Shown piece after piece: positions 1 through 35,662 of a stretch of 64,000 bases of DNA. The first letter of the stretch is position 1, and every line of letters begins with the position of its first letter. The DNA comes from Rothia mucilaginosa ATCC 25296. GTDB lineage: Bacteria; Actinomycetota; Actinomycetes; Actinomycetales; Micrococcaceae. Both the position numbers and the translations under genes were made by a program. The DNA is taken from positions 106,801 to 170,800 of the forward strand of contig NZ_ACVO01000016.1 in the NCBI RefSeq assembly GCF_000175615.1. Reading direction: 5' to 3'. Under the pieces are notes generated by a model. It did no database searches. It had not been told where the DNA came from and worked only from the letters and a program-made list of their open reading frames with translations.

Positions 1-274
1 ACCATTGAATGGGATTTATTGAGAAGGCCCCATTATTTTTACTGCCTTCTTCTTCTGCCACGCCAAATACAATCCAGCCACCGCCACTATTCGCCATAGC
101 TGCGATATCCTTTGCGACTTCATCAAACCATGCCGGTTTTAGGGGGTTGTACGGATCCTTTTTCCAGTCAAGGTCACTGGTCTCTTCCAGGCCTTCCTCA
201 ATGGCCTTTTTGATAATCTCAAGAGTGAGATTCCCAGGTTCTAAGCCCAGGGCACGGTGAATGGGTGTAAACAT
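1..274 (-). CDS. AlbA_2 / Schlafen-type DNA-binding domain protein, N-terminal part (cut by window edge)
   Basis: Only the first 91 codons are present; the gene runs off the left edge. The start ATG at 274 is preceded by AAGGAG about 5 nt upstream. The reading contains the pattern of the AlbA_2 domain: an acidic segment (ETSDLDWKKD) followed by AKDIAAMANSGGGWIVFGV near residues 60-79, the glycine-rich strand that defines this family. Such proteins are often annotated as ATP-binding or Schlafen-AAA regulators, and they recur in defence loci. It lies 185 bp downstream of the methyltransferase gene on the same strand, so it may be the last gene of that cluster. The C-terminal part, which would show whether an ATPase or winged-helix domain follows, is outside the window. 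Confidence 0.75.
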   Translation of the reverse strand, partial: MFTPIHRALGLEPGNLTLEIIKKAIEEGLEETSDLDWKKDPYNPLKPAWFDEVAKDIAAMANSGGGWIVFGVAEEEGSKNNGAFSINPIQW

Positions 275-459
275 TAGAACTCCTTATCAAAAGAGGAAAT
301 ACCCATAGATTCTGAGTGCTATCCGCCCTCAAAACTCAGTATAGATTCCTCGCAGAATTTCTGCCCCTAAATTGGTCAGGGTGTGCAGGTATGCGGGAGG
401 GCTGCGCGCACGCTGAGAGCAACTCAGCCAGCACACAGCCCTTTCACCTATCGAACCAG

Positions 460-3400
460 CTACTTAGCGGTTCGCCTGCGAGCGCGAGGATTCTTAGCCG
501 GCTTCGCAGCTTCCTCAGCCGCAGTCAGCTCCTGATAGCGCTCGAAAAGAATCTCCAGGCGCTTCGCTTCAGAAGAACAACGACGAGACGCACCAAAAGC
601 GACATCCACCGCAGAATCCAACTCATCATGCGCCGCACGCAACGCCGGATCCATCGTCGCCAACGAAGCATACATCTCAGCCAAAGACACCGGCTCACCC
701 GCACGCTCCTCAATCGCTTCACGCGCAGCCAACACCTTACGGCCCGCAGCAATCACCTTACGACGCTGCTCCTCAGAAATCTGCGGCAAAGGAAGATTAT
801 TCCACACCACCGTATTCGAGAACCTCAAATCAGACTTCAGCTGACCACCGACAGTACGTTGCCAAGTAATGAGCATAGAAGAGGAGAGGAGAGCAAACAG
901 GAAGCCATCTGGGTCGATGGCAGTAAATGCAAGGTTGCTCGTAATTGTTTCAGGGGAAAAGTGTTTTACGGTGAAGAACGGACGATTCGCGGAGACAACA
1001 GATGGGATGCACACGTAGGGTTCCAGCGGCTGGCGCATTTCACCAAATAGGTGAGGAGTTTGTGCAAGCTCCTGCGTTACTTTCTTTGTACTCTGCACAC
1101 GCATGTGGACAACCCCCGCCACGCGAGCACTCAGTACCGGACTCGAAGCAATTTCCTCTTCCGAGGCATCTTCCAACCACAGGCACCAACGTTCCAGTCC
1201 CTGCACCAGCTCCTTAGCACCAACGAAAGGACGAAGATAACGAGCCGCTACCGGGTCAGCGGCAACCACCGGGTAGTCCTCCACCTCAACGATTAGATTT
1301 CCACCATCCGTCGGCTGGCTTCCACGTACTACCTCAGGAATCAAAGAGGAGAGAGGCTTGGAGCGCTTCTCCACCAACACGTTCGGGCCCTCCACCAGGT
1401 AGGCGTTCAGAGCATGAACCGGCTCCTGCTCTACCGTTTGGCGGGTCGACCAGTCGTAGTCAAAGACACGCACGCTACGCTTCTCCGGAACTTCCGAGCG
1501 AGTAAAGCCCGTAATCACACAGTGCACCGCCGCCTTACCCGCAGCTTCCGACTCCCATGGGAACGTACGATACGCAAACTTTAGACGCCACCCATCACGG
1601 AAAAGCGGACCAAAGAGCGAAGGTACCGGCTGGCCCTGAACAATCGAGTTTGTAGACACAAAAGCAAACTCGCCCGGCACCTCGGTCACGCCCAGTATCT
1701 CGGACTGTTCCTGCAAGGTCTTCAGGTAGCGAGCAGCCTTAGCGAACCATGCCGTCGCAAAATCCAAGTAACCAGCATAGTCCTTGCCCCACGCCAGACG
1801 CATACCCAAATCCTGCTCATCGCCCTTCTTCGCCTGACCCACAAAAGGCGGATTACCAGCAATATACACGCGCACACCATTCGCCACATCCTGCGCGGTC
1901 ACCGGCAGAACCTTCGACCAGTCACGATCCACATGCTCACCCGAAGCAGGGTCAATCTCAGTCAGGGCGTCACCCTCAAGAATGTGGGCGCTATGAGCCA
2001 GAGGAAGACGCACCGGAGCATAGCCAAACTCCTCCATCATCTTCTGGTCCATCTGACGCTCCACCAAGAACATCGCCGTACGCGCAATCGAGGCGGGCCA
2101 CGGGTCAAGCTCCAGGCCATAGAAATTATCGATAGTCACCAAAGGCTCAATCGAGCGGGCACGCTTACGCACGCCCTCACTCACACCAGCCGTACCCACG
2201 ACCAGCGAACCCAGCTCACTCTCATCAATCTGACCCAGATTACGCAGGCGCACCAGAATATCCAGCTCCAACTTACGCATCTCACGGTAGGCAATAATGA
2301 TGAAGTTACCGCAACCACACGCCGGATCCATAAAACGGATATTCGCCAACTCACGGCGCAGATTACGCAGACGAGTCGGCTCATCCGACTTATCTACCGC
2401 GTTCGTGAGCTTATCCCGCAACTCATCCAGGAACAGCGGGTTCAGGGTCTTCAGCACATCCTCTTCCGAGGTGTAGTGCTCACCCATCTCACGACGAGTC
2501 TTCGCGTCACGCACCGACTGGAACATCGAACCGAAAATAGCCGGAGAAACCTTCGACCAATCACGCTCCGAAGTCGCCAACAGCTGCTGACGGAACGTCT
2601 TTGCCACCGCGCCGCTCATCTCAGCAGGAAGCGGCACAGCATCCGCAAACATGCCGCCATTCACGTACTTAAAGCCAGACAGATACTCCGGAGCATCCGC
2701 CACAGCCGAGGCACCCGAAGGCTTCTTATTCAACAGGTCAAAGAGCTCATTCAGGCGCTGCGCCAGATCCGTACCCTCCTGATGAGTACCACGAATCATC
2801 CGCTCAAACGAGTTCGAATCCTCAGACTCAGACCACATCTGCGTATCATCAGCAAACAACAAGAACAACAGGCGCGCCATCACCGTCGAAATCTGAGCCT
2901 CCGACATGCCAGCCTTCGCCAACGACTCAAAAAGACCCGCCATCTGGTTCGTTGCCTCGCGCGTCTCGTTCACCGTCTCAACGTCAAAACCACGACGCAT
3001 ACGGTCCAAAAGACCCAGAATCGACACGCCATTCGCAATGTCATCAGAAGTCAGGTACAGCAGAGCACAACGCTCCAACAACGCCTCAACCTGAGCCTCA
3101 TCCTTCACCAACAGCTCATGACGAGTCAAACGCGAGGACGAAGCGCTCGGCCAACGCCACACCTGACGCGGCGTAAAACCAACGCCCTCCTGCACAAAAA
3201 TGCACAGGCGGTGCATGCTCAACGCACGCAACGTACGGTCAACCTCAAGCTGCGAAGTATTCGACGGAATACGGTCCACACGGCACACCCACACCGGAAT
3301 GCCCGACTGAACCGACACGCATTCCACGTTCAACACGCCAGAAGGAACCAGCGGGTCATCCACCTTCACAGTCTGAAACGAGGAGTCTCCCAAATCCGAC

Positions 3401-3501
3401 TCATCCCAGCCCAGAGATTCCCTAAAGAAATCACCCAGGCGACCCTCCACCAGGTACGAACGCGCCTGGTCCAGGTCATCATCAGGCCACACAACGGCCA
3501 T
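460..3501 (-). CDS. Class I SAM-dependent DNA methyltransferase (MmeI/Eco57I-like, type IIG-like)
   Basis: A 1013-residue protein predicted to methylate adenine in DNA. The SAM-binding motif I is DPACGCGNF at residues 392-400 and the catalytic motif IV is NPPF at 550-553. Ahead of them lies the helical GEHYTSEEDVLK segment (from about 340) typical of MmeI-like enzymes, and a long C-terminal half would hold target recognition. The first 300 residues are unlike the MmeI nuclease domain and I see no clear PD-(D/E)XK motif there, so it may modify only. The ATG at 3501 has AAGGAG seven bases upstream. It follows the PLD-helicase gene by 124 bp and precedes the AlbA_2 gene on the same strand. I infer that it is the modification arm of a defence system. 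An orphan methylase is the alternative. Confidence 0.88.
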   Translation of the reverse strand: MAVVWPDDDLDQARSYLVEGRLGDFFRESLGWDESDLGDSSFQTVKVDDPLVPSGVLNVECVSVQSGIPVWVCRVDRIPSNTSQLEVDRTLRALSMHRLCIFVQEGVGFTPRQVWRWPSASSSRLTRHELLVKDEAQVEALLERCALLYLTSDDIANGVSILGLLDRMRRGFDVETVNETREATNQMAGLFESLAKAGMSEAQISTVMARLLFLLFADDTQMWSESEDSNSFERMIRGTHQEGTDLAQRLNELFDLLNKKPSGASAVADAPEYLSGFKYVNGGMFADAVPLPAEMSGAVAKTFRQQLLATSERDWSKVSPAIFGSMFQSVRDAKTRREMGEHYTSEEDVLKTLNPLFLDELRDKLTNAVDKSDEPTRLRNLRRELANIRFMDPACGCGNFIIIAYREMRKLELDILVRLRNLGQIDESELGSLVVGTAGVSEGVRKRARSIEPLVTIDNFYGLELDPWPASIARTAMFLVERQMDQKMMEEFGYAPVRLPLAHSAHILEGDALTEIDPASGEHVDRDWSKVLPVTAQDVANGVRVYIAGNPPFVGQAKKGDEQDLGMRLAWGKDYAGYLDFATAWFAKAARYLKTLQEQSEILGVTEVPGEFAFVSTNSIVQGQPVPSLFGPLFRDGWRLKFAYRTFPWESEAAGKAAVHCVITGFTRSEVPEKRSVRVFDYDWSTRQTVEQEPVHALNAYLVEGPNVLVEKRSKPLSSLIPEVVRGSQPTDGGNLIVEVEDYPVVAADPVAARYLRPFVGAKELVQGLERWCLWLEDASEEEIASSPVLSARVAGVVHMRVQSTKKVTQELAQTPHLFGEMRQPLEPYVCIPSVVSANRPFFTVKHFSPETITSNLAFTAIDPDGFLFALLSSSMLITWQRTVGGQLKSDLRFSNTVVWNNLPLPQISEEQRRKVIAAGRKVLAAREAIEERAGEPVSLAEMYASLATMDPALRAAHDELDSAVDVAFGASRRCSSEAKRLEILFERYQELTAAEEAAKPAKNPRARRRTAK

Positions 3502-3625
3502 AAAAATGCTCCTTCACAAGAGAATAGTGAACCAACCGATTCACAGAAAAACTACACACAGCCCCGCGGTGCGAGACGCTTCACCGCGCCCCGCACCACA
3601 GGCCATAGCACCCACCCGGGGCGCA

Positions 3626-6600
3626 CTAACGCACGGGATTCTTACCCGCAAAATCAGGATCCGAAATCGCCAACGAACACACCACACGTGCCATCTGCAT
3701 ATCAGATTCCTTCACCAACAGCTCATCATCCTGCTGCATGCGCAACAACGCATCCAACAAAGAGCGGTTATCCGCCTTACGGCGCAACATACGGCGAAGC
3801 TCAGACTCAGCCTGACGACGCAGCGGGTAATGGTACAGCTTATCCAGCACCTTCCGCTCCCGCTCCTGCAGTTCCAAAGTATCCAGCGAAGCCGTGCTAT
3901 CAGCCCCGTAGAAACGACGGAACACCTGACGGCGCACACCACGCAGATTACCGTGCGTCGTGCCCTCCTGCCGCAAAACATACTGAGTCAACTTCTGCTG
4001 CAGGTCATAATCCTTCGGATCAGTTTCCTGACTCGGCGTCGAATACTCCGCATAGAACAAGCCCAGAGCCTTCGCCGGCGGCACCATGCTCTCCTTCGCG
4101 CTGTCCGTAGCCGGGTCATACGACCTCACCGCAAACAGGTCAATCTCAGAGTTCGTGCGCACATACGACACCATCAAAGCATTATCATCCGCCGGATGAA
4201 CGCTCGACTCACCGCGCAACGCGCGAGTCGCCAAACGCTTATCCTGCATCTTCATAATCCGCTCAGCATGCTCAGGACGATTCTTCGCAAAATCAGCCCA
4301 ACGCTCCGCAGCCTCAGACACCGCGTCAATACCCTCTTCCTCAGGCTCCTCGCTATCCAGGTTGCCCGAGTAGAAATCCTCAAGAGTACGAGCTGTAGCA
4401 TCATCAGAAGACATATCAGTAAAGAACGCCTGATCAGCACCAAAAGCCTCAGCCGCAGACTCCAAACGCTCACGAATACGCGAACGCAACTTCAAAGTCT
4501 TCTCCACCGTCTGATGCGAAATCAGATACACATTCACCTCATGATGAACCTGACCCACACGGTCCACACGACCCGCACGCTGAATCAGACGAATAATCGC
4601 CCACGGCAAGTCATAATTCACCACCACGTGAGCATCCTGAAGGTTCTGACCCTCAGACAGCACATCAGTAGCCACCAGCACGCGTAACTCAGGACCATTC
4701 AGAGCAGGAGCCTCCGCGTCAGATGCCTGCTCCGTCGGCACACGGTTCGACACCGGCGAGAAACGACGAGCATACGACGCCGGATCATCAGTATCACCAG
4801 CCACCGCAGCCACATTCTCAACACCCAGCTTCCGCAGGCCATCAGCAATGTAGTACGCAGTGTCCTTATACTCCGTGAACACCAGCACCTTATCATTCGC
4901 GTGCTTCTGCTCAATCAAATCACGCAGCGCATGCAGCTTCGAGTCAGTCTCAACCTCCCACGCGCCAAAACGCTTCAGCATAGCCTTAATCAGCTCGCTA
5001 TCATGCTGCAAGTCATCACGCAGACGAGACGTAAACACCGTCGAGGAAACCCACTTCGTCTGAGCCGGCGCACTCTGAACCAGGCTTTCATACATCTGCT
5101 CCAGGTTCCCGCTCAAATCCTGAACCTGCAGGCCGTCCACAGACTCAAAGTCAGCCGCGTCAGAACCCTCCAGACCCAACTGGTCATCCGAGAAACTACC
5201 CGTCGGAACACTCAGCTGATAGTCAATCGCATAAATCCACAGCTCATTACGAATCAACTGACGAGTCAACGACTGAATAAACGAATAGCCTGAAGAGCTC
5301 AAACGCTTATACAGGCCCGAAAGCACAAAGCCACGCACATTACCGCGACCCGAACGAGCCGCCTCAATAATCGCCCTATTCTCCGGAGAATGGTGGGCAT
5401 TCGGGTTGTCATACCCAGAAATGTCATAACGCGGCAGACGCAAATCCCTCAAATCATCAAGGGTCTGGTCATCCTCCATAAAACGGGCGGGGTCATCAGC
5501 CTTAAAGCTATGGCTCACCGGCTGCGACACCCAATCCGGGTAATAGAACTTACCCGTCGACAACTCCAGGTAGCTACGCTCCTTCGTCACCAAACCATCA
5601 GGAGAAGTCCACATCTCCGTCGGTGCCTGGCGCTTAGTGTACGCACGAGTACGACGCACCAGATGGTCACTCATCAACGTGCGCCAATCCTCCGGCTCCT
5701 CAGAAATCTCAAAAGCACGCAAGGTCGACAGGTTACCCTCCAGCTTGTCGAACTTCTTCGAATACTTCTCCAGACCCTTCTCCGGAATGATGCCCAGGTC
5801 AGCATCCTCATCAAGATACAGAGCCAGCTGCGCCTTCACATCACTAAACGACAAGTTAAACGGGGTCGCAGTCAAAAGCAGAACACGCGACTCATTACGC
5901 GAGACATACTCCTTAATGGCACGCCACACCTGCGTATTCTCATTACGCAGATTATGCGACTCATCACAAATCACCAACTGATAACGCGCCAAATCAGGCA
6001 ACTCAGCAGCCGCCATCGAATAGCGAACCACCTTACCCACCACGTCATACTCGCTCAGATGCTTATCCCACATCTGCTCCAAGTTCTTAGGGCACAACAC
6101 CAGAACGCGCATATTCTCTTCATTCTGCAACATTGACGCCACAGCAATCGCAGTCAAAGTCTTACCCAGACCCACCACGTCACCCAACATCGTGCCGCCA
6201 CGGCGCATCAAACGGCGCGCCAAAGTATGAGCAGCCGACTTCTGATAATCCATCAGCATATGCTCCAAACGCGGAGAAAGCGCATACTCCTGCTCACCAA
6301 AACGAGCATCCTCAGACAGCTCGTAGCAGACCTTCATATACACGTCATACGGGTCAGCCGGCTCAACCCACGACTGATCAATCAAATCAATAATCTCGCG
6401 GGTAATATCAAACGACGTACGCTCACGCCACAGCTTCTCAAACCAATTCTTCAACTTCGCCGCATGATCCGAATCAGTCAACTCAACATTGAGCTCCAAA
6501 TTCGTGTGCAAACCCGGACGAGTAAAGTTCGAAGAACCCACAAAACTCATCACCGGATGCATATTGCCCGGCTTCGGAGTATGCGCAACATACGTCTTAC

Positions 6601-7063
6601 CGTGCAACGCCTGCTTCGTATACACCTTCATCTGCACACGGCCAGACTCCAAATGCTCCTTCAAAGTCAACAAAGCCTGACGACGCGCAGAGCTCGTACC
6701 ACCAGCCATCAGCTGACCACGCAAATGCTGAACCAGCTCATCACGATAACCCGCACGCTCATCATTCTTCGGCACCGAAGACACCGACTCGCCGCGCATC
6801 TCCGCCTGCGCCTCAGCATGCATCTGCTCCGTAATCGAACGCGGCACCATACCCAGCAGAATACGAGCCACCGGAGTGCCCGGCTCAAACGGAGCCTGAC
6901 CAATCTCATCAGCGAACTCATCCCACGCGCTCAAGTTCATATAGCCCGTCGCAATATCCAGACGGTCATAGTACTTCATCGTGCGATGCAGCGCGTCAGC
7001 AAGCTTCGCGCCCTTACCTTCCCCCTGCGGAAGGTAACCAAGATTATCGTAAATTTCAGCCAT
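3626..7063 (-). CDS. SNF2-type helicase with N-terminal phospholipase D-like domain
   Basis: A 1145-residue protein. Residues 1-230 hold a PLD-like half-site, HGK at 154-156 and GSSN at 176-179, a fold used by some restriction nucleases. The helicase follows: Walker A GLGKT at 298-302, DESH box at 367-370, TATP at 398-401, and motif VI QRAGRVDRVGQ from residue 828. This is the SNF2/superfamily 2 arrangement used to translocate on double-stranded DNA. The reading frame stays open to 7216, but I place the start at the ATG at 7063: it has AAAGG upstream, begins MAEIYDNLGY, and the extension overlaps the upstream gene. It lies between the HEPN and methyltransferase genes with short gaps, consistent with one operon. 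I infer a restriction or phage-defence effector/motor. It resembles parts of DISARM-type systems, but their other subunits are absent. Confidence 0.9.
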   Translation of the reverse strand: MAEIYDNLGYLPQGEGKGAKLADALHRTMKYYDRLDIATGYMNLSAWDEFADEIGQAPFEPGTPVARILLGMVPRSITEQMHAEAQAEMRGESVSSVPKNDERAGYRDELVQHLRGQLMAGGTSSARRQALLTLKEHLESGRVQMKVYTKQALHGKTYVAHTPKPGNMHPVMSFVGSSNFTRPGLHTNLELNVELTDSDHAAKLKNWFEKLWRERTSFDITREIIDLIDQSWVEPADPYDVYMKVCYELSEDARFGEQEYALSPRLEHMLMDYQKSAAHTLARRLMRRGGTMLGDVVGLGKTLTAIAVASMLQNEENMRVLVLCPKNLEQMWDKHLSEYDVVGKVVRYSMAAAELPDLARYQLVICDESHNLRNENTQVWRAIKEYVSRNESRVLLLTATPFNLSFSDVKAQLALYLDEDADLGIIPEKGLEKYSKKFDKLEGNLSTLRAFEISEEPEDWRTLMSDHLVRRTRAYTKRQAPTEMWTSPDGLVTKERSYLELSTGKFYYPDWVSQPVSHSFKADDPARFMEDDQTLDDLRDLRLPRYDISGYDNPNAHHSPENRAIIEAARSGRGNVRGFVLSGLYKRLSSSGYSFIQSLTRQLIRNELWIYAIDYQLSVPTGSFSDDQLGLEGSDAADFESVDGLQVQDLSGNLEQMYESLVQSAPAQTKWVSSTVFTSRLRDDLQHDSELIKAMLKRFGAWEVETDSKLHALRDLIEQKHANDKVLVFTEYKDTAYYIADGLRKLGVENVAAVAGDTDDPASYARRFSPVSNRVPTEQASDAEAPALNGPELRVLVATDVLSEGQNLQDAHVVVNYDLPWAIIRLIQRAGRVDRVGQVHHEVNVYLISHQTVEKTLKLRSRIRERLESAAEAFGADQAFFTDMSSDDATARTLEDFYSGNLDSEEPEEEGIDAVSEAAERWADFAKNRPEHAERIMKMQDKRLATRALRGESSVHPADDNALMVSYVRTNSEIDLFAVRSYDPATDSAKESMVPPAKALGLFYAEYSTPSQETDPKDYDLQQKLTQYVLRQEGTTHGNLRGVRRQVFRRFYGADSTASLDTLELQERERKVLDKLYHYPLRRQAESELRRMLRRKADNRSLLDALLRMQQDDELLVKESDMQMARVVCSLAISDPDFAGKNPVR

Positions 7064-7106
7064 GAAAATAACCTTTACATGTGAGTGAATAAAAAATGAA
7101 TGAAAA

Positions 7107-8330
7107 CTAGGCAGCCAACAGCGCCTTAGCCAGCTCCAGCTGAGCCTTAACCTTCGCAGTACGACGCTTACGGCCAAAAGTCGCCAACACAGCCGACTCA
7201 ACATCCTGGCCCTCATCCATCAGCTCAGGATTCTGCTCATAGAAGCGCCAAGCATTCGCAATCTCAACCGGACTAATCTGGTCAAACTCGCGCACCGCAC
7301 CATCAACCGAAGGACGGAACTCGCCATACTCCTCGCGCGGCTCCTCAACATGCCACACGAACTTATGCTCATCCACCTGCAGCTCGGGCATGCGGTCCGC
7401 CAAACGGATAATCCAGTCGCGGTTCTTCTTCGCCAAACGGCTCACGCCAAAGCACTGCGCCGCCAAAGTCGCCAAACGATCAGCCTGAACCGGACCCTCA
7501 GCAGACACAATCTCTTCAAGAGCAGCAGACATCTGATCCTTAGAACGCTTACTGCGCAGCGAATCAAAAATGTCACGGTCACCCAACGAAATCGGCTCCC
7601 ACGGCTCAAACGGGTAACGGCCCTCCCCCACCACAAGACACAGCGGAGGAACCGAGGAATCAGAGACCGGGGCCGGCTGAGAAGCCGAAGCAGGAGCCAC
7701 CGTCTGAGCAGGTCGAGAAACCGGTGCCGGACGGGCTGGGCGAGTAAACGCACCACGAGGCGCAGACACCTCAGTCTTCACCTCACGGGCAGTCGACACA
7801 GCCTGACGAACCTCATCATCTAGCTCACGACGAACCGGAGCCGCCTCACCAGCACCAAACAAATCAGCATGCACACGGTCCAGCTGGTCCTCACACCACG
7901 CCTGCTGCTCCGGCGCACCCAACGCCTCAAAAAGACGAGCCGCCGAATCGTAGATACGCACCGCGTCATTGCGGTCCAAATCGACATAATGCGCGCTCTT
8001 ATTACGGAAAATACGCAGGTCCTGCGCATAAGTGCGCACCTTGCGAGCGCCGTCAGGTTCAAAAGGGAACTTATTGTTCGGGGGCCCCACACCTTCAGTA
8101 AACATACGAAGCTGAACCTGAAGGTCCTTCGGGTTGTAGAGATCAGGGTGACGGAGGCGGTCACGATTCTCATCATGAATCTTCAAAATGATGGTCCAGC
8201 CACGCTCTTCAAGAACCTTCTGAGGCATGAACTCCTTCTGAGCCAACAACTCAGTCAGCAGAGGGTCAAGCTCACGGCTCAGATAGTACAGGCACGAGGA
8301 AATGTGAGCGTTTGCCTTTTCAATAGACAT
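7107..8330 (-). CDS. Swt1-like HEPN domain and DUF3320 protein
   Basis: A 407-residue protein. The N-terminal helical domain contains RNKSAH at residues 109-114, which fits the Rx4-6H catalytic pattern of HEPN ribonucleases. A proline/alanine-rich linker covers about 170-235. The C-terminal part from about 245 (VSAEGPVQADRLATLAAQ, then FGVSRL) matches DUF3320, usually found at the end of large defence helicases and thought to bind DNA. I chose ATG 8330 over the upstream ATG 8378 because the extension (MWWQWLLQHIQRNGFY) looks non-coding, although the ribosome-binding site is weak at both. It is the first gene of the cluster HEPN, helicase, methylase, AlbA_2. I infer an RNase effector or sensor in a defence system; activity is not shown by the sequence. 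Confidence 0.8.
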   Translation of the reverse strand: MSIEKANAHISSCLYYLSRELDPLLTELLAQKEFMPQKVLEERGWTIILKIHDENRDRLRHPDLYNPKDLQVQLRMFTEGVGPPNNKFPFEPDGARKVRTYAQDLRIFRNKSAHYVDLDRNDAVRIYDSAARLFEALGAPEQQAWCEDQLDRVHADLFGAGEAAPVRRELDDEVRQAVSTAREVKTEVSAPRGAFTRPARPAPVSRPAQTVAPASASQPAPVSDSSVPPLCLVVGEGRYPFEPWEPISLGDRDIFDSLRSKRSKDQMSAALEEIVSAEGPVQADRLATLAAQCFGVSRLAKKNRDWIIRLADRMPELQVDEHKFVWHVEEPREEYGEFRPSVDGAVREFDQISPVEIANAWRFYEQNPELMDEGQDVESAVLATFGRKRRTAKVKAQLELAKALLAA

Positions 8331-8447
8331 ATAAAAACCATTTCGTTGTATGTGTTGCAGCAACCATTGCCACCACATTCATTATGCCTAATGAGAACAA
8401 CATGTGCGTACTGGTTCGTCATTATGGAACCCAACCCGCTTAACCGC

Positions 8448-8512
8448 GAAAAGCCACATGTGTTTCGAGAAGCCACCAAAGAAGTGGCTTTTCGAAACAC
8501 ATGTGGCTTCTC
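8448..8512. repeat. 65-bp imperfect palindrome upstream of the HEPN-helicase-methylase cluster
   Basis: Two 29-base arms (8448-8476 and 8484-8512) pair with two mismatches around a 7-base loop. Within each arm a 7-base unit (AAGCCAC, or GTGGCTT on the other side) occurs twice, so the site has four copies arranged as two direct pairs facing each other. It lies 118 bp upstream of the HEPN gene start. It could be an operator for a dimeric or tetrameric repressor, a second terminator after relA, or an insertion boundary. Confidence 0.85.
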
Positions 8513-8538
8513 AACGTAAAGACCAGAAAATAGAAATC

Positions 8539-8639: not shown

Positions 8640-11117
8640 CTACGCCTCCGAGGGTTTCGCGCCGGTCAGGCGGTACGCCTTGTACACGCCCGTCACGTTA
8701 CGGACCACGTTCAGCACGTGCTCCAGCATGAAGCGGTCACCCAGCTCCAGGGCGAAGCGGTCCACCACGGTGCGGTCCTCCGAAGTGTGCACGCGCGCAT
8801 CCAGAATGTTCACGCCCGACTCAGAGATAGCACGAATCAGGTCGCTCAGCAGGCCCTTACGGTCCAGTGCCTCCACCTGAATCTGCACACGGTACGTAGC
8901 GGTCGGCGAAGACGCCCACTCGACCGTGGTCACGCGCGGCTCCTCGTCAGCGTTACGCATGTTCGGGCAGTCACGGCGGTGCACCGAAATGCCGTTATAG
9001 CGGGTCACAATGCCGATAATGTCATCCGGCGGGACCGGGGTGCAGCAGCGCGCAATCTTCGTCAGCACACCCTCAGCACCCGGCACAATCACACCGTTAT
9101 CGCCAATCGCCTTGCGGGTCGACTTCAGCAGCGTCTCGTCAAAGTCGCTGACCTCAACCTCGGGTGCCGGCTCGTCGCCGCGGTGCACCTCAACCAGGGT
9201 GTCAATGACCTGCTTCGGCGCGATCTCGTGTTCACCAATCGCACGGTACAGTGACGCCACATCGTTCTTGTGCAGCAGCTGAGCCACCTGAGTCATAATC
9301 TCCGGGCTCATCATCTTCTGCAACGGCAACTCACTGTTACGCATGCTCTTGGTGAGCATCTCGCGGCCGGCGAGCAGCGCCTCCAGGCGGCGTTCCTTCG
9401 CGAAGTACTGGCGGATCTTCGTGCGAGCGCGTGAGGAGCGAACGAACTTCAGCCAGTCCTCGCTGGGTCCGGCGTCTTCGTTCTTCGTGGTCATAATCTC
9501 CACGGTCGCGCCGGTGGGCAGGACCGTGTGCAGCGGCACGAGGCGGCCGTTGACCTTCGCGCCGACCGTGCGGTCGCCGACTTCACTGTGGATGGCGTAG
9601 GCGAAGTCCACGGGGGTGGAGCCGTTGGGCAGGGCGATTGCCTCGCCGTTGGGGGTGAGTACGACGATTTCGTCGGTGTCGAGGGTGTCAGCGAGCGACT
9701 CGTAGAACTTCTCCGACTCCGGGTTGGAGTTCGAAATCTCCGCAATGGACTGCAGGATGCCGACGTTCATCATCGCCGAGGTCTGGGTACCCGGCTCCTT
9801 CGGGTCCTTCGCGGGCGCGCCGCCACGAGCCGCAACCTTCTCGCCGCGCGACGCCGCCTTGTAGCGCCAGTGCGCCGCCACACCGTACTCGGCTTCTTCG
9901 TGCATCTTGTAGGTGCGAATCTGAATCTCAAGCGGCAGGTTGCCCGGACCGTACACGGTCAGGTGCAGCGACTGGTAGTTGTTGTTCTTCGGGTTCTTAA
10001 TGTAATCCTTGAAACGGCCAGTCATCGACGGCCACAGGGACAGCACGTGGCCGAGCACGGTGTAGCATTCCGCCTCTTCCTCGACCATGATGCGCACGGC
10101 GAGGATGTCGTTAATCTCGTCGAAGCTGCGGCCCTTCGTCTTCATCTTCTGATGAATCGAGTAGTAGTGCTTCGGGCGGCCCGTCACGGTCGCGTCGATG
10201 CCCACCTCTTTCAGACGCTCCGTAATCTTGGTGCGCGCCTCGTTCAGGAACTTTTCGAGGGCGGGGGTGCGTTCGCCGACCATACGCACCATTTCGGCGT
10301 AAATTTCCGGGCTCATAGCGGCGAAGGACAGGTCCTCCAGCTCCCACTTAATCGTGTTCAGGCCCAGGCGGTGCGCGAGCGGCGCATAAATTTTCAGGGT
10401 CTCTTCCGCCTTCTTCGCGGCGGAAGCCTGCGGCACGAAACGCCAGGTGCGGGCGTTGTGCAGGCGGTCGGCAAGCTTAATGAGCAGCACGCGGATGTCC
10501 TTGCTCATGGACAGCACGAGCTTACGAATCGTCTCGATGGAGGCGTTCTCGCCGTAGGTCATCTTGTCCAGCTTGGTCACACCATCGACCAGGTAGGCGA
10601 CCTCTTCACCGAACTCTTCGGTGAGCTGCTCCATCGTGTAGTCGGTGTCTTCCACCGTGTCATGTAGCAGACCCGCGGCGAGCACGGGGCCGGTCGCGCC
10701 CATCTCCGCAAGAATCGCGGTCACAGCCACCGGGTGGGTGATGTACGGGTCGCCACTCTTACGCTTCTGACCCTCGTGGCAGCGGTTCGCCACCTCGTAG
10801 GCGCGCTGCAGCACCTGAATGTCTTCGTCCGGGTGGTAGCGGCGCACGGCACGTACGACCGGCGCAATCATCGGGGAGAAACGGATGGTGCCGCCGTTCG
10901 AGTCGGATGCTTCCATCTTGCTGCTGCGGCTACCGAAGACCAGGCGGTTGGGCACACGTCCGCCAGCAGCCATGACGCGGTGCGAGCCGCGTTTCTTCTT
11001 TGCGTCAGACGAATCAGTTTCAGGCAGAGGAATCGGGCCAGCGGGCCGAACCGCGGGCTTCTCGGCGGTCCCTGCAGGGTTCTCAGCGTTGGTGTTCACG
11101 GCAGGTTCTGCACTCAT
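8640..11117 (-). CDS. relA: Bifunctional (p)ppGpp synthetase/hydrolase Rel
   Basis: An 825-residue stringent-response enzyme that makes and degrades (p)ppGpp. Domains in order: hydrolase HD domain with HDTVEDT at about 152-158, synthetase domain with GRPKHYYSIHQK and EIQIRT, a TGS domain (LTPNGEAIALPNGSTPVDFA), a helical/zinc-finger-type segment with ARCCTPVPPDDI, and a C-terminal ACT domain. The intact HD signature indicates that hydrolase activity is kept, as expected for the single Rel of actinobacteria. The N-terminus carries an unusually long low-complexity extension of about 80 residues rich in alanine, proline and basic residues. The ATG at 11117 has AAAGGAG upstream. It ends in its own terminator and is separate from secDF. 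Length and domain order are normal for the family. Confidence 0.97.
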   Translation of the reverse strand: MSAEPAVNTNAENPAGTAEKPAVRPAGPIPLPETDSSDAKKKRGSHRVMAAGGRVPNRLVFGSRSSKMEASDSNGGTIRFSPMIAPVVRAVRRYHPDEDIQVLQRAYEVANRCHEGQKRKSGDPYITHPVAVTAILAEMGATGPVLAAGLLHDTVEDTDYTMEQLTEEFGEEVAYLVDGVTKLDKMTYGENASIETIRKLVLSMSKDIRVLLIKLADRLHNARTWRFVPQASAAKKAEETLKIYAPLAHRLGLNTIKWELEDLSFAAMSPEIYAEMVRMVGERTPALEKFLNEARTKITERLKEVGIDATVTGRPKHYYSIHQKMKTKGRSFDEINDILAVRIMVEEEAECYTVLGHVLSLWPSMTGRFKDYIKNPKNNNYQSLHLTVYGPGNLPLEIQIRTYKMHEEAEYGVAAHWRYKAASRGEKVAARGGAPAKDPKEPGTQTSAMMNVGILQSIAEISNSNPESEKFYESLADTLDTDEIVVLTPNGEAIALPNGSTPVDFAYAIHSEVGDRTVGAKVNGRLVPLHTVLPTGATVEIMTTKNEDAGPSEDWLKFVRSSRARTKIRQYFAKERRLEALLAGREMLTKSMRNSELPLQKMMSPEIMTQVAQLLHKNDVASLYRAIGEHEIAPKQVIDTLVEVHRGDEPAPEVEVSDFDETLLKSTRKAIGDNGVIVPGAEGVLTKIARCCTPVPPDDIIGIVTRYNGISVHRRDCPNMRNADEEPRVTTVEWASSPTATYRVQIQVEALDRKGLLSDLIRAISESGVNILDARVHTSEDRTVVDRFALELGDRFMLEHVLNVVRNVTGVYKAYRLTGAKPSEA

Positions 11118-32048: not shown

Positions 32049-32633
32049 TCATTTATTTTTGAACGACCACATTCCGCTAAATATCGCAATAAATGCAAGT
32101 GGTATATACACTACATAAACCCCTATATACAACATCAGCACAAGCATGCTCTCCAATACTTCAGAACGCGACTTCTTATCCCGTAAACATGTCGGATTCT
32201 GCTCTGAAAAAGATAAAGCCGCCAGAAAAATTAAAGAAAAAATCCCCAGAAAATTAAATGCATGAAAATCCCACAACGTAAACACCCATAGCGTAAAGGC
32301 TACAATCTGCAGCCCTCCACTCCTGATCTGCTTCATGGAAATAGCACTAACAAACATGCATATCCATCCAAAAATACAAATTATACTCTGCGACCCGGAC
32401 AAGGGTTCTTGCTGAAGGAAAGTAGCAACATCGGCAACTGGCTTAGCTAGAGCGTCAAAATGAACCCATTCAAGAAATTTTGAAATACCCATGAGGCCGC
32501 TCAGTCCTGTATGGTTCCAGAGAGAGTAAATTACCGACATAGAGTAAGCAGATACGAAAACGCAGAAAGCTTTCGAGAAAAGGTTTTTGTCTGCTATATA
32601 TTTTGCTGTGGTTTCCATATTAATAGCCACCAA
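32049..32633 (-). CDS. Small integral membrane protein of unknown function
   Basis: A 194-residue protein with several predicted membrane helices (KAFCVFVSAYSMSVIYSLW, SIICIFGWICMFVSAI, FNFLGIFSLIFLAALSF, LVLMLYIGVYVVYIPLAFIA). No family was recognised. The start is GTG 32633, with GAGGAG six bases upstream; a later in-frame ATG at 32618 is weaker. AT-rich base use unlike the core neighbours, and position in a variable stretch, suggest foreign origin. Confidence 0.6.
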   Translation of the reverse strand: MVAINMETTAKYIADKNLFSKAFCVFVSAYSMSVIYSLWNHTGLSGLMGISKFLEWVHFDALAKPVADVATFLQQEPLSGSQSIICIFGWICMFVSAISMKQIRSGGLQIVAFTLWVFTLWDFHAFNFLGIFSLIFLAALSFSEQNPTCLRDKKSRSEVLESMLVLMLYIGVYVVYIPLAFIAIFSGMWSFKNK

Positions 32634-33758: not shown

Positions 33759-35606
33759 TTAGACAATTTTTATTTTTTCCTTATCGATCTCTGCTTCAAT
33801 TTCACTATCCAGGAATTCTTTAAACTCTTTAGAAATAAGTACACGATAGTTAATCTTTCGACCAACATCACCATTTTTAACCTCTTCCTCATTCTTTTTA
33901 CCTTCTTCTTCATTCTTTTTATTAATATATTTTTGAACCCGAGAATCCAAGAAGTCCTCTAAGTAATTAATGGTTTTAATTTGCAAACCCCCTACTTTAA
34001 ATTTATTTCCAACATAAATTGTATAGAGTTTTCGCTGAACACTTTTAACCCCCTTTTCTTCATAATAATCCGACACCTTAAAATAAAAGTCTATATACTC
34101 TTTCACATTTTTAAAATCCAGGCCATCATGAAAAATCGACTTATAGTCTTTTCCAAACAATGCTCGCTTATTGTTACTAGCTTTACCTGGTTCACCGCGC
34201 ATAATTGCCATAAGTATTTGAGCCGCTAACTCCATGTTTATATCACGATACCCGGAGAAAGATTCAGACTTTCCACTTTTTCGCACGTAATTATATTGAA
34301 ATTGCCTCAAATAATAATGCAGTGAAATTTGAATGGGATCATTAGCATGCAGATCAGCCGGCTTGATAGAATTCTGACTATTTGTATATTTCGCAATTTC
34401 GGCGCCTAATGAATATTCAAGCTCCTCCTTCTCCCCTTCAGGTTTTGCCAATCCCACCGAGTAGGCACGGACAAGAACGAAAGAATTTTTTAACGACTCT
34501 ATCTTTTTACCAGTCTTATCCTCAGAATTCTCAATATATTCATAGACTGAGTTTAGAGTTTGACCACCATTAACAATTTGAAAATTCTCCAAAGTGATAG
34601 TACTAACATCAGATGGCATATTCGCTCTCGAATTAACACTATCCGCAATAATTGTAATTCCGTTATTATATGCAAAAAATCTATCTCCGCTTTCTCGAAT
34701 TGTATCAATTATGTCTTTATTATATTTAGTGCGACCTAAGTAATTTCTAACATTGTCCTCCAATAGAGATTTATCCATTTCTATTTTATTCAAATCATCA
34801 ATATTTATTTCGGCTACTTCTTCCCCTTCTTCTCCTTCAAGCAGTCGATAGGCTTGATTAGTACAAGTTATTCTCATCAGCTCGAATAGGGATGCAATGA
34901 AGATACACGATTTACCCAGCTTTTCTCCAGTAGTTTCATATTCAATTACCTGATCTTTTTTAACTTGAATAACTGCCGACGTATTCCGTGGGTCATTGGT
35001 AATTCTGTTCACGATATCCTCTAAACACATCTCAGTTACTTTATATTCTTCAAATCCACTAAATATATTTTTATTTGCTCGAATATTATTATTCGAGACA
35101 AAATATATTTCTATGGTGGATACAGGCTTCCCATCCATTAATTTCTTAATATTTTTAATAGCTCGTGAAGAGTATTCATATTCTGGGTCCTCTTCAATCT
35201 TGGCCAAGCGCTCGCTACTAATGTGGTTAATAAATTTCACCGTCGAATTAACATCATCTTCAGTTAGCGATCCTTTTGACCTATAGTTATCTTTATATTT
35301 AAAGTTAAAAAGACTAATTTTATACCCATCACCATCTTTTTTTATATGGTAAGCATCCACTCCAAGATCATTTTTATTAGGATTACCTGTGGTCCTTCGA
35401 ATATAATCGGTGTCAATAATCATATCTGATATTTCTTTAATATCCTTGACACCAGTAATACTACTTAATATAAAGAAATAGAATCCTAGACGCTCTCTAT
35501 CCTTGGTGGCTATTTCTTCTATATTCTTAAATATTCCAGATTTCTCCGCATTATTGTATGCTTCGAGGCTAGCTTTTTCAACAATTCGATAATTGCTTAT
35601 AGTCAT
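33759..35606 (-). CDS. AIPR-family (abortive phage infection) protein
   Basis: A 615-residue protein. The AIPR signature is clear: FFAYNNGITII at about 310-320 and FQIVNGGQTLNS at 342-353. A separate N-terminal part has LGVDAYHIKKD and ISLFNFKYK (81-105), which may be a diverged PD-(D/E)XK nuclease fold; this is tentative. AIPR proteins are described as abortive-infection effectors against phages. I start at ATG 35606, with GGGAG seven bases upstream, not at 35636. Base use is strikingly AT-rich compared with all core neighbours, pointing to horizontal transfer. The gene lies between two copies of a terminator-like repeat, with no integrase seen. Confidence 0.88.
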   Translation of the reverse strand: MTISNYRIVEKASLEAYNNAEKSGIFKNIEEIATKDRERLGFYFFILSSITGVKDIKEISDMIIDTDYIRRTTGNPNKNDLGVDAYHIKKDGDGYKISLFNFKYKDNYRSKGSLTEDDVNSTVKFINHISSERLAKIEEDPEYEYSSRAIKNIKKLMDGKPVSTIEIYFVSNNNIRANKNIFSGFEEYKVTEMCLEDIVNRITNDPRNTSAVIQVKKDQVIEYETTGEKLGKSCIFIASLFELMRITCTNQAYRLLEGEEGEEVAEINIDDLNKIEMDKSLLEDNVRNYLGRTKYNKDIIDTIRESGDRFFAYNNGITIIADSVNSRANMPSDVSTITLENFQIVNGGQTLNSVYEYIENSEDKTGKKIESLKNSFVLVRAYSVGLAKPEGEKEELEYSLGAEIAKYTNSQNSIKPADLHANDPIQISLHYYLRQFQYNYVRKSGKSESFSGYRDINMELAAQILMAIMRGEPGKASNNKRALFGKDYKSIFHDGLDFKNVKEYIDFYFKVSDYYEEKGVKSVQRKLYTIYVGNKFKVGGLQIKTINYLEDFLDSRVQKYINKKNEEEGKKNEEEVKNGDVGRKINYRVLISKEFKEFLDSEIEAEIDKEKIKIV

Positions 35607-35662
35607 ATAAGTCTCCCAACTTAAAGGAACTTCCATGAAAAATGTACTTACTAACTTATTTT

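Follow-up and report, generated by a model that had tools for sequence, protein, structure and literature searches.

A PLD-SNF2 helicase and an MmeI-family adenine methylase without a nuclease domain, encoded next to each other in a 64,000-nt stretch of Rothia mucilaginosa ATCC 25296 (contig NZ_ACVO01000016.1; the window, meaning this whole stretch), form the core of a locus type that recurs across Actinomycetota and to which a small HEPN_Swt1-DUF3320 protein is a frequent but optional addition. With slightly more confidence than doubt, the locus is interpreted as an ATP-dependent two-protein restriction-modification (R-M) machine with an optional RNase guard. Every domain involved is already known, PADLOC holds a candidate model named 'HKD+Snf2', and the idea of a link between HEPN proteins and R-M was published in 2013. 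Literature searches returned no description of a nuclease-less MmeI-type methylase paired with a PLD helicase, of a stand-alone HEPN-DUF3320 protein as a recurrent partner of that pair, or of HEPN exchange among systems.

A four-gene cassette in the window

The minus strand of the window's first 8.3 kb contains four real open reading frames (ORFs), which follow one another in transcription as HEPN-DUF3320, PLD-SNF2 helicase, methylase and AlbA_2. The intergenic gaps are 43 nt (HEPN-helicase), 124 nt (helicase-methylase) and 185 nt (methylase-AlbA_2), in agreement with an earlier note on this DNA that described four genes on one strand with short gaps. The coding features are the following.

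7107..8330, minus strand: HEPN_Swt1-DUF3320 gene; the ORF is readable from 8378
3626..7063, minus strand: PLD-SNF2 helicase gene; the ORF is readable from 7216, but its first 51 codons then overlap the HEPN gene
460..3501, minus strand: MmeI-family gamma-type adenine methylase gene, with a target-recognition domain and without the MmeI_N nuclease domain (Pfam)
2902..3501, minus strand: methylase N-terminal domain that replaces MmeI_N and is common to helicase-paired MmeI-like methylases (pairwise matches, alignment, structure model)
778..1389, minus strand: MmeI_TRD target-recognition domain, the most divergent part of the methylase among the Rothia copies (Pfam, domain identities)
2..274, minus strand: AlbA_2 (Schlafen-type) gene, first 91 codons, up to the edge of the window; accompanies the other three genes in Rothia (Pfam, relatives)

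The helicase-methylase pair is constant and HEPN is optional

The HEPN protein was searched against plasmids and, by alignment, against one genome per species (84,980 species). This yielded 56 hits (8 on plasmids, 48 on genome contigs), of which 37 encode a stand-alone HEPN-DUF3320 protein of about 360-420 amino acids (aa). The remaining 19, which were fused or giant proteins or matched too weakly, were dropped (plasmid hits H4-H8, among which only H4 and H8 were fetched, as L004 and L005, together with L039 and L041-L053). Locus L006 is included in the 37; the window and the Rothia copies L054 and L055 are not. Hosts of the stand-alone form include Micrococcales, Mycobacteriales, Nocardioides, Kribbella, other actinomycetes and one Coriobacteriia metagenome-assembled genome.

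Within fetched flanks of 10-12 kb, complete trios of HEPN, PLD-SNF2 helicase and methylase are present at 22 of the 37 loci, and the three genes thus constitute a recurrent set across Actinomycetota. HEPN is accompanied by the helicase in L014 and L033 and by an ISP-like methylase in L037 and L038, where the contig or locus ends, and in L026 it directly follows a one-protein solo MmeI enzyme that has MmeI_N, with no helicase. One helicase family is combined with three kinds of methylase: Eco57I/DrmMI-like (~1335 aa; Eco57I by Pfam, DrmMI among the matches), MmeI-like, and Type ISP-like (1148 aa, with a Type_ISP_C recognition domain). The gene order is methylase-helicase-HEPN at Eco57I-like loci and helicase-methylase-HEPN at most ISP-like loci and in L027. 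HEPN stands first in Rothia and L021, and is divergent in L002 and L023.

A helicase profile (alignment A3) was scanned against 394 genomes of the class and 396 of the order, with the two best candidates per genome scored. Strong matches were found in 7 genomes of the class (840 bits or more) and in 14 of the order (E 1e-150 or better), amounting to 19 distinct genomes since G001 and G028 occur in both scans. The other 11 class-scan matches (303-466 bits) were not counted; in G210, which was fetched from among them, the neighbouring protein scores 25 bits against the methylase profile. A methylase adjoins the helicase in all 19 strong-helicase genomes (14 MmeI-like, 2 Eco57I-like and 3 ISP-like), whereas HEPN-DUF3320 lies in the fetched flanks of only five (G001, G028, G684, G700 and G724), these flanks being mostly ~8 kb a side and the G628 contig ending just past the helicase. 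The helicase-methylase pair is therefore the core, to which HEPN is often but not always added. Set against these sampled frequencies (7/394 and 14/396), 22 trios at 37 loci suggest linkage beyond chance on a plain comparison of counts.

These counts alter the earlier picture of a single obligate four-gene system with HEPN as its effector, which an add-on guard, present in 5/19, fits better. The grouping itself holds for three of the four genes: they co-occur repeatedly and match no fully described system, the two points on which the earlier note had staked it. Among 35 Rothia genomes, two (G001 and G028) carry HEPN, the helicase and a 90-91% identical methylase at a single locus. Their helicase matches exceed 2500 bits, and the next best Rothia genome reaches 83. 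G013 matches HEPN only via part of a 2055-aa protein, and 14 other Rothia genomes contain more distant MmeI-type relatives. Among close relatives of the HEPN protein, those with a species name belong to Rothia mucilaginosa and Rothia sp. RSM386, and G001, the nearest of the genomes compared, shares 25% of the sampled words of the window.

A probable transfer of the nuclease role to the helicase

The window methylase matches MmeI_Mtase (8e-73), MmeI_TRD (8e-64), MmeI_hel and MmeI_C in Pfam. The same four domains occur in 16/16 helicase-paired MmeI-like enzymes, in which the methylase motifs DPACGCGNF and NPPF, singled out in the earlier note, are also invariant. In contrast, MmeI_N (PF20464) was found by Pfam neither in the window methylase nor in any of these 16, and was present in 14/14 solo MmeI-like enzymes. 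An enzyme was counted as 'solo' when neither HEPN nor the PLD helicase was matched in its fetched flanks, which span ~0.8-1.5 kb for 13 Rothia enzymes and ~7-10 kb for L026; the Rothia genomes carrying the 13 have no PLD-helicase match above 83 bits, and the split or partial Rothia MmeI relatives L090, L091, L094, L095 and L098 were excluded. The solo enzymes bear a D..EQK-type motif, whereas the paired enzymes have a different N-domain, as observed in eight of them compared pairwise and aligned (the N-terminal piece of L160 is cut too short for the pairwise comparison). Residues F26, W32, G67, W71, W115, W117 and P118 of this replacement domain are invariant in the 16 paired methylases. The earlier label 'type IIG-like' therefore suits the methylase, recognition and C-terminal domains but not the N-terminus, where the nuclease domain PF20464 is absent. 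This absence had gone unnoticed and is graded here as the most telling feature of the locus.

The helicase comprises PLDc_2, SNF2-rel_dom and Helicase_C domains, and C3a139 'HKD+Snf2' is its best PADLOC model. The PLD active site is formed by H154-x-K156, GSSN179 and E190, encoded at ~6494-6604. The PLD residues H, K, N and E, together with SF2 motifs I, II, III, V and VI, are invariant in 18/18 sequences of alignment A3, in support of the earlier description of a PLD half-site and the main SF2 motifs in one protein. MmeI_N in 0/16 paired and 14/14 solo enzymes, with an invariant PLD site on the helicase, suggests that the nuclease role has probably moved from the methylase to the PLD helicase, which is the probable DNA cutter. 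MmeI-type methylases that keep the nuclease when alone, and are without it beside a PLD helicase, provide a natural experiment on restriction-enzyme evolution.

Among the three Rothia copies (window, RSM386 and G001), the helicase is 97-98% identical. The methylase recognition domain is only 63-81% identical and the other methylase domains 91-100%, as would be expected of a restriction system that changes its target.

The HEPN_Swt1-DUF3320 protein

The HEPN protein consists of an N-terminal helical HEPN_Swt1 domain, a disordered linker, a winged-helix DUF3320 domain and C-terminal helices. Pfam matches HEPN_Swt1 (3e-10) and DUF3320 (9e-7), the Swt1-type profile PF18731 scores above its cut-off, and the R-x4-6-H motif of the Swt1/Abi2 group is present. 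The predicted active site, R-N-K-S-A-H, is encoded at ~7989-8006. Its R-x4-H pattern, the catalytic motif of the earlier note, is kept in 34/34 stand-alone HEPN proteins, window included, and the protein is predicted to be an RNase. An AlphaFold2 model has a predicted local distance difference test (pLDDT) score of 80.6 and a predicted template modelling (pTM) score of 0.47.

When the G001 allele is compared with the other two from Rothia, the HEPN domain and linker (first 240 residues) are 51-88% identical by 60-residue blocks and the DUF3320 part is 96-100% identical, the reverse of what is expected for a conserved catalytic domain.

Exchange of HEPN partners

HEPN-DUF3320 also lies near defence genes other than the helicase-methylase pair. 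It lies near an SspC-type gene (DNA phosphorothioation defence) in L018 and L020, at 2.5 kb, and in L032, at 7.4 kb; in L020 a DUF4007 gene adjoins SspC. A type III R-M pair is located near HEPN in L012. On an Arthrobacter agilis plasmid (L003, 11998-16304), HEPN is separated by 30 nt from a gene annotated as a type II restriction endonuclease, after which come vsr and dcm. Altogether, 32 of the 37 loci place HEPN near a modification-based system or its helicase (27 with trio-type partners, plus L003, L012, L018, L020 and L032).

In a HEPN tree of 34 rows (the window, G001 as L057, and 32 loci, leaving out L033, L036, L037, L038 and L040 for split, short or cut frames), the partner labels need 14 changes against a minimum of 6. 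The starred branches alone force at least 4, 3, 2 and 2 changes for the Eco57I-like, MmeI-like, ISP-like and Ssp labels, respectively. Neighbourhoods and tree indicate that HEPN has changed partners across defence systems.

Two side observations concern these neighbourhoods. The L003 plasmid bears a Shedu gene nearby, and restriction genes of the GmrSD type are close neighbours of HEPN-DUF3320 in L012, L015, L021, L029 and L024 (called by Pfam in L015, L024 and L029, and by sequence clustering with L015 and L029 in L012 and L021).

Proposed working and alternatives

In the proposed machine, the methylase would use its recognition domain to bind an asymmetric site and, as its family predicts, mark host DNA with N6-methyladenine. 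At unmarked sites it would load or activate the SNF2 motor, which would travel along DNA. The PLD domains of two helicases may then pair and cut, as described for Type ISP (PMC3874165) and SauUSI (PMC7913695). HEPN-DUF3320 would act as a separate latent RNase, touching DNA or the restriction complex through its winged helix. Inhibition or over-engagement of that complex would release HEPN in a PrrC-like manner, and translation would stop. AlbA_2 may be a further accessory.

The PrrC-like guard is the weakest step of this scheme and has less than an even chance of being right. It is suggested by the optionality of HEPN and its exchange of partners, and by analogy with PrrC, which is released when EcoprrI is inhibited, as covered in a review of PrrC and guardian systems (PMC12707154). 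Reversible inhibition of R-M-linked HEPN RNases by R-M subunits was also proposed in the work of Anantharaman in 2013 (PMC3710099). As in a guardian arrangement, the RNase gene is linked to the restriction locus (22/37) and often absent from it (14/19 helicase-methylase pairs without a HEPN found). A broader proposal, offered tentatively, is that HEPN_Swt1-DUF3320 may be a transferable guardian, a small latent RNase within at least six kinds of DNA-modification defence that senses a state common to them and in Rothia moves together with its host system in an interchangeable cassette bordered by hairpins. The six kinds are the MmeI-, Eco57I/DrmMI- and ISP-type methylases (mostly with the PLD helicase), Ssp phosphorothioation, type III R-M and type II R-M. 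HEPN-DUF3320 would then be a small candidate for a general guard of DNA-modification defences, and the hold-and-release of R-M-linked HEPN RNases could be approached with one gene and several partner systems.

Several observations weigh against this interpretation. Ten of the 37 HEPN loci are without any trio partner, two of them near a contig or locus end, and at five of the ten (L009, L017, L019, L024 and L034, again two near a contig or locus end) no modification system could be named. A zeta-toxin gene adjoins HEPN in L017, and a GmrSD-type gene lies near it in L024. In Mycobacterium asiaticum (L019, 6332-11101), HEPN follows a UvrD-type helicase and a PD-(D/E)XK protein, a partner without a modification enzyme. 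The partner labels taken together are more clustered on the HEPN tree than in any of 200 shuffles, which means that partner exchange is limited, and the tree program warns of long branches (window group 3.6 and L034 3.57 changes per site). Some relatives seem defective: frames read as split in HEPN (L033, L040), in the helicase (L035, G628) and in the methylase (L013, which is G700), and HEPN in L036 reads as a short frame.

The main rival to a guard is a direct-effector role, in which HEPN would be a permanent subunit that target recognition itself activates, such that every restriction event also cuts RNA. The intact motif in all 34 proteins and the longest frames, which abut or overlap by a few bases at several loci (for example L001, L011, L016 and L025), favour this account, but 14 of the 19 helicase-methylase pairs have no HEPN in the fetched flanks, its position and orientation vary (it lies upstream in Rothia and L021 and has a divergent orientation in L002 and L023), and the same family adjoins other modification systems. 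A direct effector is considered unlikely. It is more doubtful still that the HEPN-DUF3320 gene acts on its own in abortive infection or as a toxin and lands in defence islands independently of its neighbours, since trios stand at 22 of 37 loci with a helicase family that has strong matches in so few sampled genomes, the genes abut, and 32 of 37 loci lie near a modification-based system or its helicase. That the locus is a degenerate DISARM or BREX-related (Hma/BR) locus with its other subunits lost is very improbable: DrmD, HmaA and DrmMI appear as weaker PADLOC and NCBIfam matches and Type-2 BR also fuses an HKD (PLD) nuclease to the N-terminus of a SNF2 helicase (PMC12839542), but the relA-DUF349 island of G028 contains these four genes only, no DUF499 or PglZ domain occurs in their window or RSM386 counterparts, and the helicase and methylase stand together in 19/19 genomes with split frames in just two (G628, G700), indicating little decay.

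Comparison with known systems

The proposed R-M machine resembles several characterized systems, each in part. With Type ISP enzymes (LlaGI, LlaBIII) it shares a gamma-methylase, a recognition domain and an SF2 motor, and its ISP-like flavour has Type_ISP_C. Type ISP is, however, described as a single chain with an Mrr-like nuclease (PMC3874165), whereas here the nuclease is of the PLD type and motor and methylase are separate genes at every locus where both were seen. With the MmeI family (Type IIL/IIG) it shares the methylase, spacer, recognition and C-terminal domains, and in a sequence search of the PDB with a limit of E 0.001 the methylase matches MmeI 5hr4 alone (E 5e-138). The window methylase differs in having no MmeI_N nuclease domain and in its pairing with a PLD-SNF2 helicase.

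A PLD nuclease driven by an SF2 ATPase is also found in SauUSI and NgoAVII/CglI (PMC7913695). SauUSI is a type IV enzyme, a single PLD-ATPase-TRD chain that has its own target-recognition domain (TRD) and cuts methylated DNA, and in NgoAVII/CglI one subunit combines PLD with a B3 TRD while the ATPase is a separate subunit. In contrast, the helicase of the window lies next to its own TRD-bearing methylase. Type-2 BR (DUF499-DUF3780) and Hma share an HKD-SNF2 helicase fusion and an N6-methylase with the present set (PMC12839542), and the fusion is recognizable here as PLDc_2 with SNF2/Helicase_C. Neither DUF499 nor DUF3780 came up in a domain scan of the genes of the window cassette and of the full-length AlbA_2 and DUF349 genes with which the RSM386/G028 island ends. 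In Type-1 BR, HEPN is often fused to DUF499 and is of the Swt1/Abi2 type according to PMC3710099; here it is separate and joined to DUF3320.

Class 1 DISARM (DrmD and DrmMI) shares a SNF2 helicase and an adenine methylase with the set, and the DrmD and DrmMI models match weakly. The DISARM core consists of DrmA, DrmB and DrmC. None of these was found in the four-gene G028 island, no Drm model is the best PADLOC hit of any of the four window proteins (the check covered that island and these proteins), and PLD is here fused to the helicase, which bears out the earlier view that the locus is not DISARM.

PrrC/EcoprrI, RloC and the giant MTES_1575 proteins share a HEPN RNase linked to restriction. 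PrrC carries an ABC-type ATPase part, unlike HEPN-DUF3320. The MTES_1575 proteins are described as combining a Swt1/Abi2 HEPN, an SF1 helicase, a Vsr nuclease and a DUF3320-type winged helix in one chain (PMC3710099), whereas here HEPN and DUF3320 occur alone, without helicase and Vsr.

A hairpin-bordered hotspot in Rothia

The cassette lies downstream of a relA/spoT-like gene, with a hairpin at its border.

8445..8516, no strand: near-perfect palindromic hairpin of ~65 nt in the relA-HEPN interval, upstream border of the cassette (folding, copies in relatives)
8640..11117, minus strand: relA/spoT-like gene, conserved flank of the hotspot (named by eye from sequence)

The relA/spoT-like flank is present in 34/35 Rothia genomes, with 98-100% identity in the two that carry the set. 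The relA-DUF349 interval contains exactly the four genes in G028, and the four genes with further cassettes in G001. The region downstream of relA was inspected in nine Rothia genomes without the set. In G007 and G002, relA directly adjoins a convergent DUF349 gene; in G035, G003, G017 and G006, one ORF (248-285 aa) lies between them; and in G015 there are two ORFs, one of the CAAX-protease type. In G014, Abi_2 and type I R-M genes (HsdS, HsdR) come after relA, and the end of the contig is reached before any DUF349 gene. The 15.7 kb inspected in G034 yielded no DUF349 gene.

The window hairpin, which the earlier note had overlooked together with the hotspot, has a folding energy of -52 and coincides with a sub-threshold Rfam match (MIR7696, E 0.02). 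Copies bracket the four genes in G028 and G001, before HEPN and after AlbA_2, and in G014 hairpins flank the type I R-M genes and leave Abi_2 outside. Besides the window copy, hairpins are positioned at 8514 and 18087 in L057, 9699 and 19293 in L058, and 2213 and 9151 in L131, and also occur in L190, L193 and L196.

A whole-genome search with the 17-nt hairpin arm (at most one mismatch) gave 27 matches in G001, 22 in G015, 18 in G014 and 7 in G028, none in G007 or G002, and none with a reversed control. After merging of the arms by hand, the 15 hairpin sites of G001 form 8 neighbouring pairs less than 10 kb apart (random mean 0.89, maximum 6 in 20,000 trials), and the 13 sites of G015 form 4 (random mean 0.66, p 0.002). 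A second hairpin-bordered site carries C5-methylase, MutH-like and HNH genes in G001. The same site in G014 encodes proteins with the same printed starts, a match judged by these starts alone, and in G015 (L193, 5428-8658) a SauUSI-like protein with PLD, ResIII, SWI2_SNF2 and DUF3427 domains. Others among the ten fetched hairpin-flanking stretches held lipoprotein-like or unassigned genes, and the borders are thus not specific to defence. No transposase was identified for the repeat in the Rothia mucilaginosa group.

These arrangements indicate that cassettes framed by the ~65-nt repeat are interchangeable, that several of them are restriction systems, and that they occupy more than one chromosomal site in this group. 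Such a hotspot was not found in the literature, where the nearest search topic was only Rothia with defence; if confirmed, it would show a commensal swapping whole restriction systems in place.

AlbA_2, a companion of the trio in Rothia

The AlbA_2 assignment is correct at the level of the family (SLFN_AlbA_2, 1e-8), although the gene is cut by the window edge after 91 visible codons; two full-length relatives have 432 and 437 aa. The window allele is 68% identical to the other two over the first 60 residues and 26% over the next block. AlbA_2 follows the methylase in both trio-carrying Rothia genomes and has no match in the other 33. Across 71 loci inside and outside Rothia it was found in L006 only, that is, at 0/70 further loci. 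AlbA_2 is therefore outside the general system to which it had been assigned, a further accessory seen beside the trio only in Rothia.

Another defence gene in the window

An AIPR (abortive infection) gene is located at 33759-35636 of the window (PF10592, E 4e-43). It lies in a patch of 38-43% GC (32-36 kb) within a region of ~60% GC, and was therefore probably acquired. A threonyl-tRNA synthetase-like gene, named by eye, and a small unassigned ORF at 32049-32633 adjoin it.

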